From Vibrio alfacsensis (lineage in GTDB: Bacteria; Pseudomonadota; Gammaproteobacteria; Enterobacterales; Vibrionaceae), in the NCBI RefSeq assembly GCF_003544875.1, contig NZ_CP032093.1:2232001-2296000 (forward strand): a stretch of DNA of 64,000 nt, given 5' to 3'. This document shows positions 16,220 to 50,940 of the stretch, in pieces (position 1 is the first letter of the stretch; each line of letters begins with the position of its first letter). Under the pieces are notes generated by a model, which made no database searches, had not been told where the DNA came from, and saw only the letters and a program-made list of their open reading frames with translations. A program made the position numbers and the translations under genes.

Positions 16220-16450
16220 CTACATGGTGACTGTCAGAGATAGACCATCTTGCTTGGTCACCGAGTAGCGTACTCGAGTCACGTCATGAGCTTTATTGGT
16301 GTCGACTAGACGGCTAATTTTACCCTTTTTAATCCATACACTTAACATTGCGTCGGCACCATCTTCACTCATCCCAAACTGCTTAGCCAGATCTGACTGG
16401 GAGACGGTTCCTTTGTCTGCAATGTATTGATAAAGCTCTTTTAAAATCAT
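16220..16450 (-). CDS. feoC: Ferrous iron transport protein FeoC
   Basis: A 76-residue winged-helix protein (FeoC-like, about residues 3-70) with YIADKGTVSQSDLAKQFGMS and KKGKISRLV. The four cysteines that bind an iron-sulfur cluster in enterobacterial FeoC are absent, as is usual in vibrios. In V. cholerae FeoC binds the FeoB cytoplasmic domain and is required for Feo function; this is inferred here. It overlaps the feoB stop by 4 bases (ATGA-type junction at 16447-16450), indicating translational coupling. Last gene of feoABC. Confidence 0.92.
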   Translation of the reverse strand: MILKELYQYIADKGTVSQSDLAKQFGMSEDGADAMLSVWIKKGKISRLVDTNKAHDVTRVRYSVTKQDGLSLTVTM

Positions 16451-18723
16451 ACGACTTGCACCTCTAGTGCGCCTTGTTGTTTCTTGCCAATTCGCTTAAA
16501 TACGCGGTAAGTACCAAGGAAGATTGCCACGATCACCGCGATCCAAATACCACTGGTGATTGGACTATCTGCAAAATGCGTCAACTGGTTGTAAAACGTT
16601 GCACATAGGTAAGCGAGGCCCATTGTCCATACCGCAATAAAGCGTGCGAACTTATGACCGAATTCACGTACGTAAGCACCCATCGCCGCCACACATGGTG
16701 TGTACAATAGGATAAAGATCAAGTAAGCAAAGGCTGCATTGCCAGAAGCAAACTGAGATTTAATATTCCCGAAGATAGAAGCATCGACTTCTTGCTCTTC
16801 CGCGACTGCGTTTGAGTCGGTTAGGTCACCCACTTCAATGCCCAATGGATCAGAGTAGCTCAAACCAGCAAGGTTTTCAGGGATACTCATTACCGCCTCT
16901 TCTAGGCTAGCCATTAGATCAAATTCCGCTTCTTCGCCATCACTTGGTGTGGTGTATAAGCTATTCAGCGTGCCGACTACCGCTTCTTTTGCGAAGATAC
17001 CAGTAATAATACCAACAGTCGCAGGCCAGTTGTCTTCTTGAACGCCGATTGGTGAGAATACAGGAGTCACGACTTGTGCTGCTCTTGAAAGCACAGAGTT
17101 TTCACTGTCTTCGTTGCCAAAGCTTCCATCCATACCAAGTGAGTTTAAGAAGCTTAGGATCGCCACTACAACGACGATTGTTTTACCTGCACCTAGTACA
17201 AAACGCTTCAGTTTTTGCCAAGTCTTGATCACAACGTTTTGCACTGTTGGTAGTTCGTAGTCTGGCATTTCCATCACTAGGGTATCACTGCTACCAGGGT
17301 AAAGCGTATGCTTAAGAAATAGACCAGTAAAGATCGCAGCGACGATGCCAAGCAAGTAAAGTGCAAATACGATGTTTTGACCAGATCCTGGGAAGAATGC
17401 CGCTGCGAACAGAGCGTATACAGGCAGACGTGCTCCACATGACATAAATGGCGCCATAGATGCTGCCAGTTTGCGTTCACGCTCTTGGTCTAGCGTTCGA
17501 GTCGCCATGATTGACGGCACGTTACAACCAAAACCAAGTACTAGCGGTACAAATGCTTTGCCCGGTAGGCCGATTTTCTGCATCACTTTATCAAGCACGA
17601 ATGCTGCGCGAGCCATGTAACCTGAACTTTCAAGCACGGCTAGGAACAAGTACAAACATGCGATCACCGGAATAAAGGTAGCAACCGTCTGGATACCACC
17701 ACCGATACCATCAGCGATAATCGTCACTAACCAAACAGGCAGATGACCGTCTAAAAGATGGTGACCACCATCAACCAATAGAGCACCAACGCCAATATCG
17801 AAGAAATCAATGAACGCACTACCAATATTGATAGAGAACATGAACATCAAGTACATCACAACAAAGAAAAATGGGATACCTACCCACTTATTCAAGATGA
17901 ACTGGTCAAGTTTTTCAGTAACACTTCTGCTTAGCTTGCCTTCACTACGACGAACTTTTTTGCACTCTTCATGAAGATGCGTGTATTTAGTGTCAGCAAC
18001 ATGCAAATCGACATCAAGTTCAAGCCCAACAATCGCGTTTTCAACCACATTACGATCAGCATCGGACATACTATTTAGGACTAGAGCATCTTTTTCTAAC
18101 GCACGAATCGCGAGAGCACGGTGAGAAACGGTTTGATCATTAAAAAGATTAGAAATGTTGTTGATCGCCGCTTCCATCTGTTCGCCGTAGTTCAATGAGA
18201 TGTCTTTAAGCGCGACACCTTGAACCACAGCTTTATGTAGCTTCTCTTTGAACTCAGCAACTTGTGCTTTGTTAGTTGCAGACAAACTCACCACTGGGCA
18301 GCCCAATGTCTTTTCTAGTTCTGCAATGTTGATGACTTGGCGTTCACGCTTAAGCGCATCCATTTTGTTCAATACAACAATCATCGGACGACCAAGCTCG
18401 CGCAGTTGTAGCGTCATATATAAGCTACGCTCAAGACTCGTCGCATCGACAACGTTGATGATCAGATCTGCAGGATGAGTCAGGACCGCTCGTGATGCGA
18501 TAGACTCGTCAATACTATTGCTATCATTACCGCTATCTAGAGAGTAAATACCTGGGAGGTCTGTCAGTAAAAAGTCATCACCTGCGTGCTTAAACTGACC
18601 CGTTTTCTTTTCTACCGTTACGCCAGCCCAGTTACCTACCTGCTGCTTAGCACCAGTCAGTCCATTGAATAATGTGGTTTTACCACTGTTTGGGTTACCA
18701 ACTGTAAGAATTTGATATTGCAT
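16447..18723 (-). CDS. feoB: Ferrous iron permease FeoB
   Basis: A 758-residue inner-membrane Fe2+ transporter with an N-terminal G domain: G1 GNPNSGKTTLF (8-18), G3 DLPGIYSL (55-62), G4 NKMD (118-121). Helical GDI-like linker (about 170-270) precedes some eight or more transmembrane segments, with the Gate motif region LVLGFGCNVPSIMATR (first conserved Cys) and FMSCGARLPVYALF. Length is typical. Its start abuts the feoA stop and its stop overlaps feoC, so feoABC is one operon, probably controlled by Fur from the site near 18970. Confidence 0.96.
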   Translation of the reverse strand: MQYQILTVGNPNSGKTTLFNGLTGAKQQVGNWAGVTVEKKTGQFKHAGDDFLLTDLPGIYSLDSGNDSNSIDESIASRAVLTHPADLIINVVDATSLERSLYMTLQLRELGRPMIVVLNKMDALKRERQVINIAELEKTLGCPVVSLSATNKAQVAEFKEKLHKAVVQGVALKDISLNYGEQMEAAINNISNLFNDQTVSHRALAIRALEKDALVLNSMSDADRNVVENAIVGLELDVDLHVADTKYTHLHEECKKVRRSEGKLSRSVTEKLDQFILNKWVGIPFFFVVMYLMFMFSINIGSAFIDFFDIGVGALLVDGGHHLLDGHLPVWLVTIIADGIGGGIQTVATFIPVIACLYLFLAVLESSGYMARAAFVLDKVMQKIGLPGKAFVPLVLGFGCNVPSIMATRTLDQERERKLAASMAPFMSCGARLPVYALFAAAFFPGSGQNIVFALYLLGIVAAIFTGLFLKHTLYPGSSDTLVMEMPDYELPTVQNVVIKTWQKLKRFVLGAGKTIVVVVAILSFLNSLGMDGSFGNEDSENSVLSRAAQVVTPVFSPIGVQEDNWPATVGIITGIFAKEAVVGTLNSLYTTPSDGEEAEFDLMASLEEAVMSIPENLAGLSYSDPLGIEVGDLTDSNAVAEEQEVDASIFGNIKSQFASGNAAFAYLIFILLYTPCVAAMGAYVREFGHKFARFIAVWTMGLAYLCATFYNQLTHFADSPITSGIWIAVIVAIFLGTYRVFKRIGKKQQGALEVQVV

Positions 18724-18950
18724 TATGCGCGCTCCACTTCGATGTTTTGGGCAATCGCTTCACGTAGCGCAACCGAAACACCACGCACTTCAACTTGAAG
18801 CGGGTCACCCATCGGTGCGCGTCGAATAACTTTCACTTCAGTATTAGGAAGTAAACCCATTACCATCAACTTTTTCCTAACATCGGAAGTCAAACCTTCC
18901 AAAAGTCTAATCGTTGCTGTTTCGCCAGGCTTAATCTCTGATAACTTCAT
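18723..18950 (-). CDS. feoA: Ferrous iron transport protein FeoA
   Basis: A 75-residue SH3-like protein needed for FeoB activity in V. cholerae. It begins MKLSEIKPGETATIRLLEG and ends VSVALREAIAQNIEVERA. The open frame extends to a TTG four codons upstream, but AAGG lies 5 bases ahead of the ATG at 18950, so I use that start. First gene of feoABC; the stop shares its last base with the feoB region start. Confidence 0.94.
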   Translation of the reverse strand: MKLSEIKPGETATIRLLEGLTSDVRKKLMVMGLLPNTEVKVIRRAPMGDPLQVEVRGVSVALREAIAQNIEVERA

Positions 18951-18969
18951 AACGGCCTTCAATAGTAGT

Positions 18970-18988: not shown

Positions 18989-19294
18989 ATTAAGAATAAT
19001 ATCCAATCTTACTCTTCCGTACATCATTATTCATTGTGTGAAATCAAAGATTCCACGAATGATTTAGTAAAATCACTCGTCAATTTCGTAAATAAAAACC
19101 TCGTCACTTTCGTCAAAATTAACATTAAATCAAACTTTAACATCGAAAATGCAAAGATTAATCAATCAAGGATAAAAATAAAGTCATTTAAAACAACGCC
19201 TTAAGGCAGCTTTGGCGTATTGTCGGATTAATCATATAATTATGTCGTTAATTTTATAAGAAAAATAAGTAAGTCCTCGTATAGTTAATCCATC

Positions 19295-19310
19295 GAGAGG
19301 GCGACCTCTC
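19295..19310. other. Perfect short hairpin GAGAGG-GCGA-CCTCTC upstream of the sRNA body
   Basis: A six-pair stem with a GCGA (GNRA) tetraloop. It is either the 5' hairpin of a ~125-base transcript or a dyad operator just upstream of a ~102-base TfoR. A weak -10-like TATAGTTAA sits at about 19280. Confidence 0.5.
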
Positions 19311-19313
19311 AAT

Positions 19314-19415
19314 TGAATTCCAGAGGTGGCATGGAAACATGCCACTCCGGCAGCAAGCGAAGGTGTCATTGACACCCGTGGTATAGTCCCCCCGGCTATA
19401 CCACGATATTTTTTT
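19314..19415 (+). ncRNA. tfoR: Candidate TfoR small RNA (chitin-induced activator of tfoX translation)
   Basis: The plus strand here folds into a chain of hairpins: GTGGCATG-GAAA-CATGCCAC (19326-19345), GGTGTC-ATT-GACACC (19362-19376), and a strong terminator CGTGGTATAG / CTATACCACG (19377-19405) ending in T7. In V. cholerae TfoR is a 102-nucleotide RNA encoded between feoA (VC2078) and tfoS (VC2080), and it base-pairs with the tfoX leader to free its ribosome site. Position, size range, orientation and terminator all fit, but I could not compare the sequence with known TfoR, and the 5' end is set only by that length. TfoS should bind just upstream to activate it. Confidence 0.72.
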
Positions 19416-19420
19416 CTATC

Positions 19421-19455
19421 TCTTATCTCTTATCTCTTATCTCTTATCTCTTATC
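19421..19455. repeat. Tandem heptamer repeat (TCTTATC)5
   Basis: Five exact 7-base units with partial units on both sides (19416-19420 and 19456-19457), starting where the T-run of the small RNA terminator ends. Non-coding. Likely to vary in copy number between strains. Confidence 0.9.
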
Positions 19456-19682
19456 TCAAGAACTTTCCTAATATTTGCCATACTATTCAAGGCGCATTCA
19501 AGTACTCACTATTTAAACTTGCCCTACTTTCTCTCTAAACAAGCTAGCATCTAATATGCCCGTCAACGTAAAGCCCTCGCTAAAAGTCGCACACACATTT
19601 ATATGGATTAATTTAAGATATGAATGCGGACCCGAAGCTGAGGGGCCTTTAACAGTCACACTCGATGATGCCTCTTACAAAA

Positions 19683-19712
19683 ATAAAAAGCCCAGCGACT
19701 AGGCTGGGCTAA
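19683..19712 (-). terminator. Terminator of tfoS
   Basis: AGCCCAGC / GCTGGGCT stem (19689-19710) followed on the minus strand by TTTTTATTTTTG, 22 bases past the tfoS stop. Confidence 0.85.
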
Positions 19713-19733
19713 ACAAGAAATCTATGGCGGCAT

Positions 19734-22700
19734 CTACACACTCACTTGGCTATCTTGAGTCATTGCAAATTTTGATGGGGGCAAACCAAAGTGCAGTTTA
19801 AACTTCTGGCTAAAATACGATGGGTCATTAAAGCCGCAGTTGAATGCCACTTCGCTGATTTTCTCCCCCGCAAGCAATTGCTCACAAGCCGTTTCTAATC
19901 TTACCTCTGTCAGGTAATCTTTTAACGTTCTTGAAGAAGCCGATTTAAATCGTCTTTGAAGACTTCGTTCAGACATAAAGAGCATCTTGGCCGCTGATGC
20001 AGTTCCAAACTCGGCATCATGATAATGTTCATCGACTAACTGATAGACTTTTAACAGCCACTCTCTCTCCGCTGTCATGGTTTCTTCTTGCTGAGGTTCG
20101 TCAACAAATTCCGTTATGTTTTCCTCAACAGAAACCTGTTCTTGAGCTCGTGGCCAGAATATCTGAATCTTATTTTGCGCATCGGAGGTAAATATTGATA
20201 ATTCACCGCCGCTAGCGTCGACTAAATCTTTCAGGTTATCAATGCTTAAATCACTGTTATTCATTAAGCGTGAATTCACCGCTTTATTCGACAATTGACT
20301 GCCATGGTCAATAAAACTCAGTGAAATGGTCTCATCGTTGTCTTCAATAATTACTTTAAGTGATTGCCCACGAAAAGAGCGCTTAATCACATTCGCGAAT
20401 ATACTGTTAAAAATGACATCAAGATTAAAGCTTACCAAGGCGATTCTGTGGGCTTTTTCTTCATCATGAAGATCGACACGAATGCCCACTTTATGGAAGT
20501 CTTCTTGCCATACATCAACAATAGATTGGGTAATTTGGCTCAAGTTATAGTTTTGGCTGTAGCCATTATTGCTCTCAGGTGCACGCTTCAATTCATTAAG
20601 CTGCCAATATGTCTTAGACAAATGGTCACTAGTGGCCGTATCAAGATCGTTGAGTCTATTTTTCGCAATATAGTCAATACTCGCTTTAATCGAGAGTGCG
20701 ACGTGATCAACCAATAAGTTTCTTACTTGAATTTGTTTCCTGAGTTGTTGATTACTATTTAGTAGCACCCGGCTTTGATGCCTCAACTGATTTGTTTTTA
20801 ACGTTACTTGCGCAGCCAGTTCTCGGTTTGCTTGTACAACATATCGAGAACGCCAATACACAACAACCACGACAAACAGCAATGAAGTTATCACAAACCC
20901 AATGATCGCTATCTTAGATAAATACCACGGTTTTAATACGGTAAACCGAGCTTCCAAGCCCACTTGATTATCTTTTCTCTGAGCATCATTACTCACTTGG
21001 AGGTGGTAATTCCCCGTATTCAAGTGTTCCAATGTCAACTGACGACCTTCGAGAACCTGCCAATTGTCTCCCTCATTCAATCGGTAATATATGTTTTGTC
21101 GGTCAGGATAAGGCATTACTCCGAATAAAAAACTCAACGACGATCCATAAGGCAATTCCATTCGCTCTAATTGTGCGCTTCCAACCTCTACAACGTTATC
21201 TTCAAATACGACCTGACTAACGATCAACTTTGACTCCGGAGTGTTTGAGACTAATAGCGTTGACGCGTCCGCCTTAACCAAACCATATTGAGAGCCAAAA
21301 AATAATGTTCTTTCACGTCCGTCTCCATGACGTATATCGCAGACTCCCATCAAAAATTCGTTATTAATCAAGCCTGATGATGACGGGTAATGCGTAAGCA
21401 ATTGACCTGACAGTCGGTAATAACTCAAACCAACAGAAGATGATAACCAGACACCTTTTTCATCACTAACCATACAAGCAGGTCGAGAATTCGGCACACT
21501 AAGTTCAACCACTTGTTTTAGCCTGCTCCCCGGAACCGTTTTGAATACACCGTAAGAAGAGGCAAACCACTGAGCACCATCAGCCGCGGTTACCATATCG
21601 ACTGATTCACCATACTGCTGAGAAAAATCATTGAAGCGAATCCTTTCACCATCATATTCATACACACCGTGGTCAGTACCAATAAGTAGCGAGGAATCAT
21701 AAGCATATAGCTGGGTAAGCTTGGCTGGTAAGTATCGACTTACAATCCAATCACTCCCCAAACTGTGCACCTTTTGTTTTTCAATATTGAGATTGAATAA
21801 ATGGTAGCCACTTGAAAGCCAGATCTGCTGGGCATCGTTAGAAACAATATGATCAATAGCTTTCTCTGAAAATTGGGATAAGAAAGGTAAGGTAACGAGG
21901 TTATAGTCCTCCATGCTCCTAAGTTCTAGGCCCTCAGATGTCGCTAACCAAAGATAGCCATCAAGCAAAGTAAACGCATTAATTCTCGATGGCACTTGAA
22001 GCACCTGATAGATCCCCGTAGGTGTCGAGCGGTACAACCTATGATCGTCTGAGAACCATAGAGAACCATCTGAACCGACTTCTGTTTGGCGAATTCGCCC
22101 TGAGAGTGACTGAGAGCCATGGCGACTAAAAACAATACGCTCAAACTGCTTACTGAACAGCGAATAATAACGAATGCCTTGATTGGTTGCGATCCACATC
22201 CCGCCCATGTTGTCATTGAGTAAGGCGTAAATCTTTGTATCGGCGAGTTCCAACTCTAAAAAACTTGCCGGTGCGACTTTAGTAATGTCACCGGTTAAAA
22301 ACGAGTACAAATACAAGCCATGTTCCGTGCCGATCCAATATTCCTTATTGCTTTCAGCAAACGTCAGCACATGCGATTCACCAATTCGAACCACTGGCTG
22401 ACTCGGATCGTAAATATTAAAACAAGTGCGCCTTTTAAGGTTCCGACTAATATTTCACGCCGAGCTGGTGAGTAATACACTTTTCGATGTAATTCTTACC
22501 AGAACTCGCAACATGGTTAAACCGGTCACCATCTGACAAGTAAACACCAGATGTTGTAGCAAGCACCCACTTAGTTTCTATAAAAATTGCGTCATTAATG
22601 TAAACATAGCTGTTGTTGCTGTGTTGATACAAGTGCAATAAAGAGGTCGATGTCAGCTCGTTAGTTGAAAGGTCATAAGTGTAGAAATTCGCGCCATCGC

Positions 22701-23100
22701 TCACCCAAATGTAATTCCCTGATGCACCAATTTTTCGAATTTGCGCACCTGGGTTCAAACTAAAAATTAGTTGTCGCTCTTGATTTGGATAAGCTTGATA
22801 AACTTCATTTTCAACGAATGTCCAAAAGGAGCCTTTGTGAAAGGTTAGCTGTTCAGCTTGGTGATGCAGAAAACTACCGGACTTCGGCAGTGTATTTTGA
22901 CCATCGTAAAAGAGCACCCGGCCATGGACATCGTGAATCCACAATCCCCCTTGGGCCCCAAGAAATAGCTGTTTTGCTGCAACGAACGTACCCTCTGCCT
23001 GGCTTGGTAGAGGATAAAATATGGAATTTGAACCATTCAAAGCAAAAACTGGGAATGAAAGTAAGAGCCCCAGTAAAACTTGGGACAAATAACGCAGCAA
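19734..23100 (-). pseudogene. tfoS: TfoS, chitin-sensing membrane transcription factor, frame broken twice (probably intact)
   Basis: Read as is, it is two pieces (217 and 886 residues). Restoring one A in the coding A3 run (plus 22453-22455) and one T in the T4 run (plus 22419-22422) joins them as GVKILVGTLKGALVFNIYD, giving 1122 residues; 3367 bases plus 2 divides by three. Order: signal peptide (1-20), periplasmic beta-propeller repeats such as YWIGTEHGLYLYS, a Y_Y_Y-like domain (about 640-722), a membrane helix (about 723-745, IAIIGFVITSLLFVVVVVYW), a kinase-like region without a phospho-acceptor or full ATP site, and an AraC-type HTH (about 1013-1110, ACEQLLAGEKISEVAFNCGF). V. cholerae TfoS senses chitin oligosaccharides and activates tfoR from the membrane. 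The gene faces tfoR convergently and lies next to znuA, as in V. cholerae. Confidence 0.88.
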
Positions 23101-24268: not shown

Positions 24269-25056
24269 ATGTCTTCACTAGTCCGTCTTGAACACCTGTG
24301 CGTCGAATTCGATGAGCGTAGAGTTCTCGACAATATCACCATGGAATTAGAAAAGGGCAAAATCACCACCCTAATTGGTCCCAACGGAGCGGGAAAATCG
24401 ACATTAGTTAAAGTTATTTTAGGTCTACAAAAGCCAACCAGTGGCCAATTGACTAAAAAGCGCAAACTAAAAATTGGTTACGTTCCGCAGAAGCTGAAGC
24501 TTAATGACTCACTGCCGCTAAACGTTATCCGTTTTTAAATTTAGCAGGAAAATACAGTAAACAAGAATGTATTGAAGCACTTAAACTTGTCGGAGCCGAT
24601 CATCTGATTGGCAGCAATATGCATCGACTTTCCGGCGGTGAAAACCAACGCGTATTGTTAGCTCGAGCTTTATTGCAACGGCCAGAGCTTCTTGTGCTTG
24701 ACGAACCTGCTCAAGGTGTTGATGTTCAAGGTCAAATTGATTTATATGACCTCATTGAAAGCATTCGCCATCGTTTTGATTGTGGCGTATTTATGGTATC
24801 CCATGACTTGCATTTAGTGATGGCAAAAACCGATGACGTCATTTGCCTCCACCATCATGTATGCTGCTCAGGCTCTCCTGCGACGATTACACAACATCCG
24901 TCCTACATTGCGTTATTCGGCAATGCAACACGAGAATCTTTGGCATTTTATCACCACGATCACGAGCATCACCATCACGATTTATCCGGTTCACCAGTAA
25001 AAGGGGATGCGAACGCTTGCACTCACCATTCACATGGGCATCATCAACATGATTGA
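24269..25056 (+). pseudogene. znuC: Zinc ABC transporter ATPase ZnuC, frame broken by one base (probably intact)
   Basis: The N-terminal part has Walker A GPNGAGKST (about 37-45) and stops at 24538. The C-terminal part has the ABC signature LSGGENQRV, Walker [14 protein letters not shown] and the switch His in MVSHDLH, then a His-rich tail (HHDHEHHHH and [10 protein letters not shown]). Adding one T to the T5 run at 24532-24536 joins them as [20 protein letters not shown], 262 residues, the normal ZnuC length. ZnuC powers zinc import through ZnuB. Its stop overlaps the znuB start by 8 bases. The His-rich tail may buffer or sense zinc; that is inference. Confidence 0.92.
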
Positions 25057-49726: not shown

Positions 49727-50940
49727 ATGAATGGCGGACAGATTGGTAACGTAGATTTAGTAAAACAGTTAAACAGTGCTGCTGTTTATAGGTTGATTGA
49801 CCAACAAGGTCCTATCTCCCGCATACAGGTAGCCGATGTAAGCCAACTTGCACCAGCAAGTGTTACCAAAATAACCCGTCAATTACTCGAGCGCGGCCTT
49901 ATCAAAGAGGTCGCTCAACAAGCTTCAACCGGTGGTCGAAGAGCGATCTCTTTAACCACCGAAGACAAACCTTTCCACTCTATCGCCGTTCGACTCGGTC
50001 GCGACTATGTCCAATTCTGTTTATACGATCTAAGCGGCACCGCATTAGCGTCTGACCAACATGAGTTGCACTACACGAACCAAGCTGATCTTATCTCTGG
50101 TCTTATCGATTTACTTAAAGACTTCGAAAGTCGCTGCCAAGATAAGATCGAACAGCTGATTGCGATTGGTATTACCTTACCAGGCTTAGTAAACCCGACG
50201 ACGGGTGTTGTTGAGTACATGCCAAATACGGATATCGACAATCTCGCACTGGGAGAAATCATCCGTGAGAAGTTCAATACGGCATGTTTTGTTGGTAACG
50301 ACGTACGTGGCATGGCTCTCGCTGAACATTACTTCGGAGCAAGCCAAGATTGCCAAGACTCAATCTTAGTCAGCGTTCACCGTGGTACTGGTGCGGGCAT
50401 CATCGTAAATGGACAAGTGTTCTTGGGCTTTAACCGCAACGTTGGTGAGATTGGTCATATTCAAATTGATCCACTTGGGGAACAGTGCCAGTGTGGCAAC
50501 TTTGGTTGCCTTGAGACCGTGGCAGCAAACCCAGCGATTGTGCAGCGAGTAAGACAGCTCATCTCACAAGGCTACGAATCAAGCTTAACGGAACTTGAAC
50601 ACATTACTATCGAAGACGTGTGTAATCATGCCATTAACGGCGACGAACTGGCTAAACAAAGCTTAGTGCGTGTGGGTAATCAATTGGGTAAAGCCATTGC
50701 TATCACCATTAACTTATTTAACCCACAAAAAATCGTTATCGCCGGTGATATTACTGCGGCTGAAGAAATTGTTTTCCCTGCGATTAGACGCAACGTTGAA
50801 AATCAGTCTCTAAAACATTCCATAACGAACTTCCTATCGTCGCATCTCATATTGATAAGCAACCAACCATGGGTGCATTTGCAATGATAAAACGCGCAAT
50901 GTTAAACGGAGTTTTGTTACAAAAGTTACTAGAAGACTAA
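49727..50940 (+). pseudogene. nagC: NagC, GlcNAc-responsive ROK repressor, frame broken by one base (probably intact)
   Basis: The N-terminal winged HTH spans about 15-75 (RIQVADVSQLAPASVTKI, GLIKEVAQ). The ROK domain has GITLPGLVNPTTGVVEYMPN, the sugar site region GTGAGIIVNGQVFLGFNRNV and a zinc cluster CQCGNFGCLE. As read, the frame runs off at 50887. Adding one A to the A4 run at 50812-50815 gives SLKTFHNELPIVASHIDKQP and the standard end RAMLNGVLLQKLLED, stop at 50940, 404 residues (E. coli 406). NagC represses nag genes and is released by GlcNAc-6-phosphate. A terminator follows. Confidence 0.92.

Follow-up and report, generated by a model that had tools for sequence, protein, structure and literature searches.

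A TfoR orthologue in Vibrio alfacsensis with a conserved 5' hairpin and a probably longer primary transcript

The region between feoA and tfoS of Vibrio alfacsensis encodes on its plus strand a TfoR orthologue, which is an ordinary member of its RNA family. Family, genetic setting and target of this small RNA are already known; the addition made here is a conserved 5' hairpin that precedes the RNA as it is modelled in Rfam. Taken jointly, our observations make it likely that this TfoR orthologue is synthesized as a longer primary RNA with a 5' hairpin, undergoes processing and activates tfoX. In V. cholerae, TfoR is encoded between feoA and tfoS, stands under the control of chitin, TfoS and ChiS, and activates tfoX. 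It is the RNA step that links chitin sensing to DNA uptake in Vibrio.

Family membership, genetic setting and RNA elements

An earlier note on this DNA had proposed the TfoR identity from synteny and structure and had suggested a search with the covariance model of the family. The tfoR model of Rfam (RF02100) matched positions 19317-19415 (+) over its full length (model positions 1-101) with 113.4 bits (cut-off 70) and an E-value of 3.4e-30. Together with the potential of the RNA to pair with the tfoX leader of its own genome, this match bore out the proposed identity. Within the window, i.e. the whole 64-kb stretch of DNA analysed, RF02100 was the sole Rfam family above its cut-off; all remaining matches around the locus scored far below their own cut-offs. 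The 4.91-Mb genome contained a single tfoR copy according to the RF02100 search, and the plasmid collection searched for the locus yielded no match. At an E-value of 0.001, RF02100 matched 174 of 247 genomes drawn from the bacterial family, with 167 passing the cut-off and 73 lacking a match, and none of the 14 control genomes. The comparison set used throughout comprised 90 genomes with a tfoR match (67 of the window's genus and 23 from other genera), namely the own genome, 29 other best-scoring genomes and 60 chosen by hand for spread; one member, G017, scored under the RF02100 cut-off.

The flanks were as the earlier note had described them. The genes on one side, which we take to be feoA (18723-18962, -; assigned from its ORF and synteny) and feoB (16447-18723, -; assigned from its ORF), face on the other side a convergent AraC/propeller regulator on the minus strand. 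This regulator combines propeller repeats with a C-terminal AraC-type helix-turn-helix, as expected of TfoS, a transmembrane regulator of the AraC type. The C-terminal part of tfoS (19734-22394, -; 886 aa) carries both features (HTH_18 79.7 bits, Reg_prop 32.1 bits), and the N-terminal part (22447-23100, -; 217 aa) lies in another frame and has no Pfam match of its own.

Direct reading of the sequence agreed with the serial GNRA- and GAAA-looped stems reported previously. The plus strand carries, from 5' to 3', a perfect 6-bp dyad outside the Rfam model (19295-19310), composed of GAGAGG (19295-19300), the GNRA loop GCGA (19301-19304) and CCTCTC (19305-19310); TfoR hairpin 1 with eight pairs (GTGGCATG-GAAA-CATGCCAC, 19326-19345); the TfoR core CGGCAGCAAGCGAAG (19348-19362), largely unpaired in the Rfam structure; TfoR hairpin 2 with six pairs (GGTGTC-ATT-GACACC, 19362-19376); and an intrinsic terminator with a C-rich loop (19377-19415), whose stem occupies 19377-19405 and whose T7 tract occupies 19409-19415. 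Both TfoR hairpins were supported by the sequence, by RF02100 and by the fold. The terminator scan counted 12 pairs, ten of which form an unbroken Watson-Crick run, and the former description of a ten-pair terminator with T7 was therefore fair. Two terminator-like sites, that of TfoR on the plus strand and that of tfoS on the other strand, were present in 19000-19750 against 0.3 expected. The predicted 125-nt RNA (19292-19416) folded with -55.5 kcal/mol (z -6.75), and none of 200 shuffled sequences folded as well.

A heptamer tandem repeat, TATCTCT x 5.9, lies directly 3' of the TfoR terminator (19417-19457). The 300 nt that follow tfoR held tandem repeats with units of 5-12 nt, differing by species, in 23 of the 90 loci, as against none of the 90 upstream 300-nt stretches, a weak control since these consist mostly of feoA.

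Promoter and predicted transcription start

A conserved promoter block, TGTCGTTAATTTTATAAG.AAAATAAG, was found at 19243-19269 (+), followed by the -10 element TATAGT at 19280-19285 (+). Loci were screened with a block-plus-TATA criterion of fixed spacing that allowed up to two substitutions in the block and one in TATA; 69 of the 90 loci passed (64/67 in the genus, 5/23 in other genera) and 21 failed. The 62 distinct sequences from the passing loci shared the near-invariant form TTG(T/G)CGTTAATTTTATAAG.AAAATAAG, a conservation that is in part built in because the criterion itself uses block, TATA and spacing. The -10 element read TATAGT in 59 of the passing loci, TATAAA in nine and TATATT in one. 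The GTTAATTTTATA part of the block ends at 19258, 21 nt before TATA. When this distance was measured freely, it amounted to 21 nt in 64 of the 69 loci, 22 nt in four and 44 nt in one, the last of which is probably a misplaced match. Unlike the spacing between block and TATA, the distance from TATA to the core varied, from 68 to 82 nt in the 69 loci. The block occurred once in the own genome at up to three mismatches.

No -35 element was recognisable in the sequence upstream of TATAGT. Sequences anchored on the Rfam start carried at most 0.52 bits at positions -12 to -7, so that a -10 element just before the Rfam start is not indicated. A sigma-70 scan match, TATAAT ending at 19240, was rejected, since 2.5 such matches were expected and one was observed, and since the conserved promoter has another position. 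From the position of the -10 element, transcription is predicted to start at the A at 19292 (+), 7 nt after it. The block at 19243-19269 is a candidate activator site for TfoS and/or ChiS. Binding of both proteins to the tfoR promoter of V. cholerae is described in PMC11856585, the Fig 3A of which draws -35, -10 and +1.

Transcript length and processing

Transcription from the predicted start would give a primary transcript of ~124 nt (19292-19415), ~25 nt longer than the Rfam form. For genome G235 the predicted primary transcript has ~132 nt, made up of 30 nt before the Rfam start and the 102-nt Rfam match. The FeoB of G235 is near-identical to PDB 8vwl, which we take to be the V. cholerae protein, and G235 is hence presumably V. 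cholerae-like. For TfoR of V. cholerae, PMC8545128 reports a major form of ~100 nt and minor forms of ~130 and ~250 nt, and maps the region that pairs with rpoS to +79 to +113. This region reaches past the end of a 102-nt RNA. The conserved 5' hairpin could explain, in a way open to experiment, why V. cholerae has a minor TfoR band of ~130 nt, and it indicates where transcription probably starts.

We propose that the primary transcript would be cut near AUUCC (19317), which would release the ~100-nt form. The 5' hairpin, preceded by 3 nt in the predicted transcript, would most plausibly protect the primary transcript or time its processing. RNase E-like cleavage follows the pattern RN↓WUU; this pattern coincided with the Rfam start in 29 of the 62 sequences, without clear enrichment. 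This lack of a clear processing motif would fit an alternative in which the RNA of V. alfacsensis stays at ~124 nt, unprocessed, and the Rfam model is 5'-truncated; the promoter and hairpin evidence is common to both explanations. We regard such an unprocessed long form as rather unlikely, given that the V. cholerae northern blot in PMC8545128 showed mainly the ~100-nt RNA and the ~130-nt RNA as a minor form.

The 5' hairpin

Whether the RNA is longer here or the dyad serves as a TfoS operator had been raised as a question in the earlier note. Our analysis favours the longer RNA and disfavours the operator, because the dyad is located downstream of the conserved -10 element, is not conserved in sequence and has covarying arms. 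On these sequence comparisons, the dyad is most likely a hairpin at the front of a primary TfoR of ~124 nt, not a TfoS operator.

The 25-nt piece with the dyad, folded alone, had a z-score of -3.16 (100 shuffles). For the comparison across genomes, the hairpin region was taken to run from the predicted transcription start, set 12 nt downstream of the T that opens TATA, up to the Rfam start, which gave 61 distinct sequences from 72 loci. Its folding was stable, with a mean z of -2.56 and values below -1 in 54 of the 61. For 27-nt windows (53-68 sequences each), mean z-scores fell between -0.23 and +0.30 at positions -90 to 0 relative to TATA and were -1.28 at +6, -2.67 at +12 and -0.84 at +18. 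An equivalent hairpin is present in most loci examined and is not special to V. alfacsensis. It was weak in the V. cholerae-like locus L021 (z -0.98) and in the similar loci L014 (-0.66) and L072 (-0.77). The other values above -1 came from L077 and L143, where the hairpin is weak, and from L148 and L152 of other genera, which have no real 5' hairpin.

The arms differed widely in sequence and included GAGAGG/CCTCTC, AAGAGA/TCTCTT, CGGGG/CCCCG and GATAAC/GTTATC. Since a MAFFT alignment of 49 sequences left the 3' arms out of register, arms were permuted among loci instead of counting pairs. In 50 distinct hairpins from 65 loci, cognate arms paired with a mean of -9.31 kcal/mol and non-cognate arms with -5.62 kcal/mol; the cognate arms surpassed their own non-cognate mean in 48 of the 50, and none of 2000 permutations reached the cognate mean. 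Splitting each hairpin at the loop of its own fold somewhat favours the cognate arms, a bias from which the shuffle z-scores are free.

A conserved operator sequence was not found at the dyad. The arms vary yet covary, so that a 5' RNA hairpin is likely and an operator of fixed sequence is not. An alternative proposal, in which TfoS (or ChiS) uses the dyad as a DNA operator and transcription begins at the Rfam start, would be compatible with the perfect symmetry of the dyad and with its place directly upstream of the Rfam start, a possible position for a proximal operator. The binding of TfoS and ChiS to the V. cholerae tfoR promoter, as given in PMC11856585, would suit this proposal as well. 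Nevertheless, complementarity was kept while the arm sequences diverged among species, the 7-12 nt before the Rfam start lack -10-like conservation (at most 0.52 bits), and the near-invariant DNA sits farther upstream (19243-19269 and 19280-19285), all of which renders this proposal improbable.

Pairing with the tfoX leader

The tfoX gene of the own genome is located in L003; we set its start at 1477, and a further ATG in the same frame lies at 1471. The earlier note would have abandoned TfoR if the RNA had no complementarity to this leader. The 17-nt core paired with it through 13 pairs at -18.0 kcal/mol (z -3.54), a value matched by one of 300 shuffles. The site, L003:1402-1420, spans positions -75 to -57 relative to the start codon, and none of the control pieces of the own tfoX locus paired as well as the leader. 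Pairing between core and leader reached p<0.05 in 53 of the 67 Vibrio genomes (mean z -2.46), in which 14.6% of the other pieces of the tfoX loci matched the leader in their pairing with the core. In the other genera, p<0.05 was reached in 4 of 23 genomes (mean z -0.25), and raw duplex energies down to -16.4 kcal/mol were obtained within 420 nt upstream. The positive result depends on the restriction to the core: a duplex test of a 105-nt stretch of TfoR against the tfoX leader detected no pairing signal (z -0.40 for the own pair; mean of -0.17 across the 90 genomes). This full-length test is uninformative because it ignores accessibility, and the core alone was used instead.

The core was conserved as CGGCAGCAAGCGAAGG in 81 of the 90 loci. 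It was nearly unchanged in the 19 of the 23 other-genus genomes whose tfoX leader had no significant site (L132, L136, L138, L140, L141, L144, L145, L147-L150 and L152-L159). The paired tfoR/tfoX set of 90 genomes separates Vibrio, where the pairing is largely kept, from the other genera, where it was mostly not detected. TfoR probably has other conserved targets, because the core is kept where pairing with tfoX is not significant. In V. cholerae, rpoS is a known target of TfoR, as stated in PMC8545128.

RNAalifold, applied to 39 distinct Vibrio tfoX leaders chosen for holding TAATCGGGG, paired AUCUG/GAU with AUC/UGGAU in the vicinity of the start; this consensus was weak (-0.68 kcal/mol), with double changes in two of eight pairs. 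The own leader did not fold better than shuffled sequences (z -0.28; 72/200 as good). A C run of at least five in the terminator loop and CGGGG in the leader were both present in 71 of the 90 genomes and both absent in 14, with the C run alone in two and CGGGG alone in three. This co-occurrence follows kinship closely and is only suggestive of a loop-loop contact. A second TfoX-like gene, in L002, is preceded by a match to the c-di-GMP-I-GGC riboswitch (L002:1925-2075, 61.6 bits, cut-off 59); we take this gene to be tfoY-like, for which a c-di-GMP riboswitch would be expected.

In the mechanism that we propose, chitin would activate ChiS and TfoS, which would act at the block 19243-19269, and RNA polymerase would start near 19292 with TATAGT as -10 element. 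The ~124-nt transcript would present in order the short 5' hairpin, the two TfoR hairpins flanking the core and the terminator with its C-rich loop. Through its core, the RNA would bind the tfoX leader at a site 57-75 nt ahead of the start codon, beside a helix that might mask the ribosome-binding region, and would thereby switch on TfoX translation and competence. Extended to all Vibrio, this would mean a TfoR of ~120-135 nt with a fast-evolving, covarying 5' stabiliser, processed to ~100 nt and touching the tfoX leader at two contacts, the core with a UUCGC...GCUGC site and the C-rich terminator loop with a CGGGG loop. We put forward this general form, both contacts included, only tentatively and with somewhat less than even confidence; if it holds, RF02100 does not include the genuine 5' terminus of TfoR.

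Integrity of tfoS

Compared with the intact relatives L033-L039, which have 1132-1146 codons between stops, tfoS of the window changes frame twice within ~60 nt, near 22480 and at 22421-22439. An open tfoS frame of 1101-1171 aa was present in 28 of the 29 other genomes, with a single stop reported in each of G161 and G008; the exceptions among the 30 genomes were the own tfoS (906) and the diverged one of G055 (935). Besides the two changes in tfoS (22421-22480), the window differs in frame from its relatives at 24532-24535, ~42007 and 50812-50848, in znuC and two other genes. When its 68 ORFs were compared with the relative G190, 57 were single-frame and three multi-frame (znuC and the same two genes), an undercount because tfoS was not flagged. 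Assembly indels are the simplest reading of the break, because znuC and two further window genes also change frame, and the tfoS break is probably an assembly error. That the locus is decaying, with tfoS a pseudogene and tfoR no longer induced, might be read from two frame changes in a gene that is open in 28 of 29 other genomes, but it is hardly probable given that 3 of the 60 matched window ORFs change frame against G190, suggesting assembly indels, and that the tfoX site is conserved along with TfoR and its promoter.

A collection scan with the 886-aa part, reaching near relatives only, retrieved seven relatives, all of them Vibrio and including V. owensii, V. jasicida, V. harveyi, V. rotiferianus and V. 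sagamiensis; feoB was present in the fetched stretch of all seven regulator loci. Over its last 886 residues, TfoS has diverged far more rapidly than FeoB, with identities of 61.4% against 97.5% between V. rotiferianus and V. owensii and of 70.6% against 95.3% between the window and V. owensii. The most conserved part of TfoS is its helix-turn-helix end (95% in the last 86 residues between the window and V. owensii; 92% in the last 36 residues between V. owensii and V. rotiferianus).

Comparison with known systems

TfoR of V. alfacsensis shares with that of V. cholerae (RF02100) the sequence, the structure, the position between feoA and tfoS, the core, the tfoX leader site and the terminator. 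It differs in the hairpin upstream of the Rfam start, which is stronger here and weak in the V. cholerae-like locus L021. Staphylococcal sRNAs of the UCCC type bind G-rich leader or Shine-Dalgarno sites through C-rich loops. The C run in the TfoR terminator loop, accompanied by a CGGGG in the corresponding tfoX leaders, resembles this arrangement; unlike in the UCCC-type sRNAs, the loop-loop contact is represented here only by co-occurrence. With the TfoS/ChiS-controlled tfoR promoter, as described in PMC11856585 and PMC13316777, the promoter of V. alfacsensis has in common the intergenic position and the convergent tfoS, and its conserved block occurs once in the own genome.
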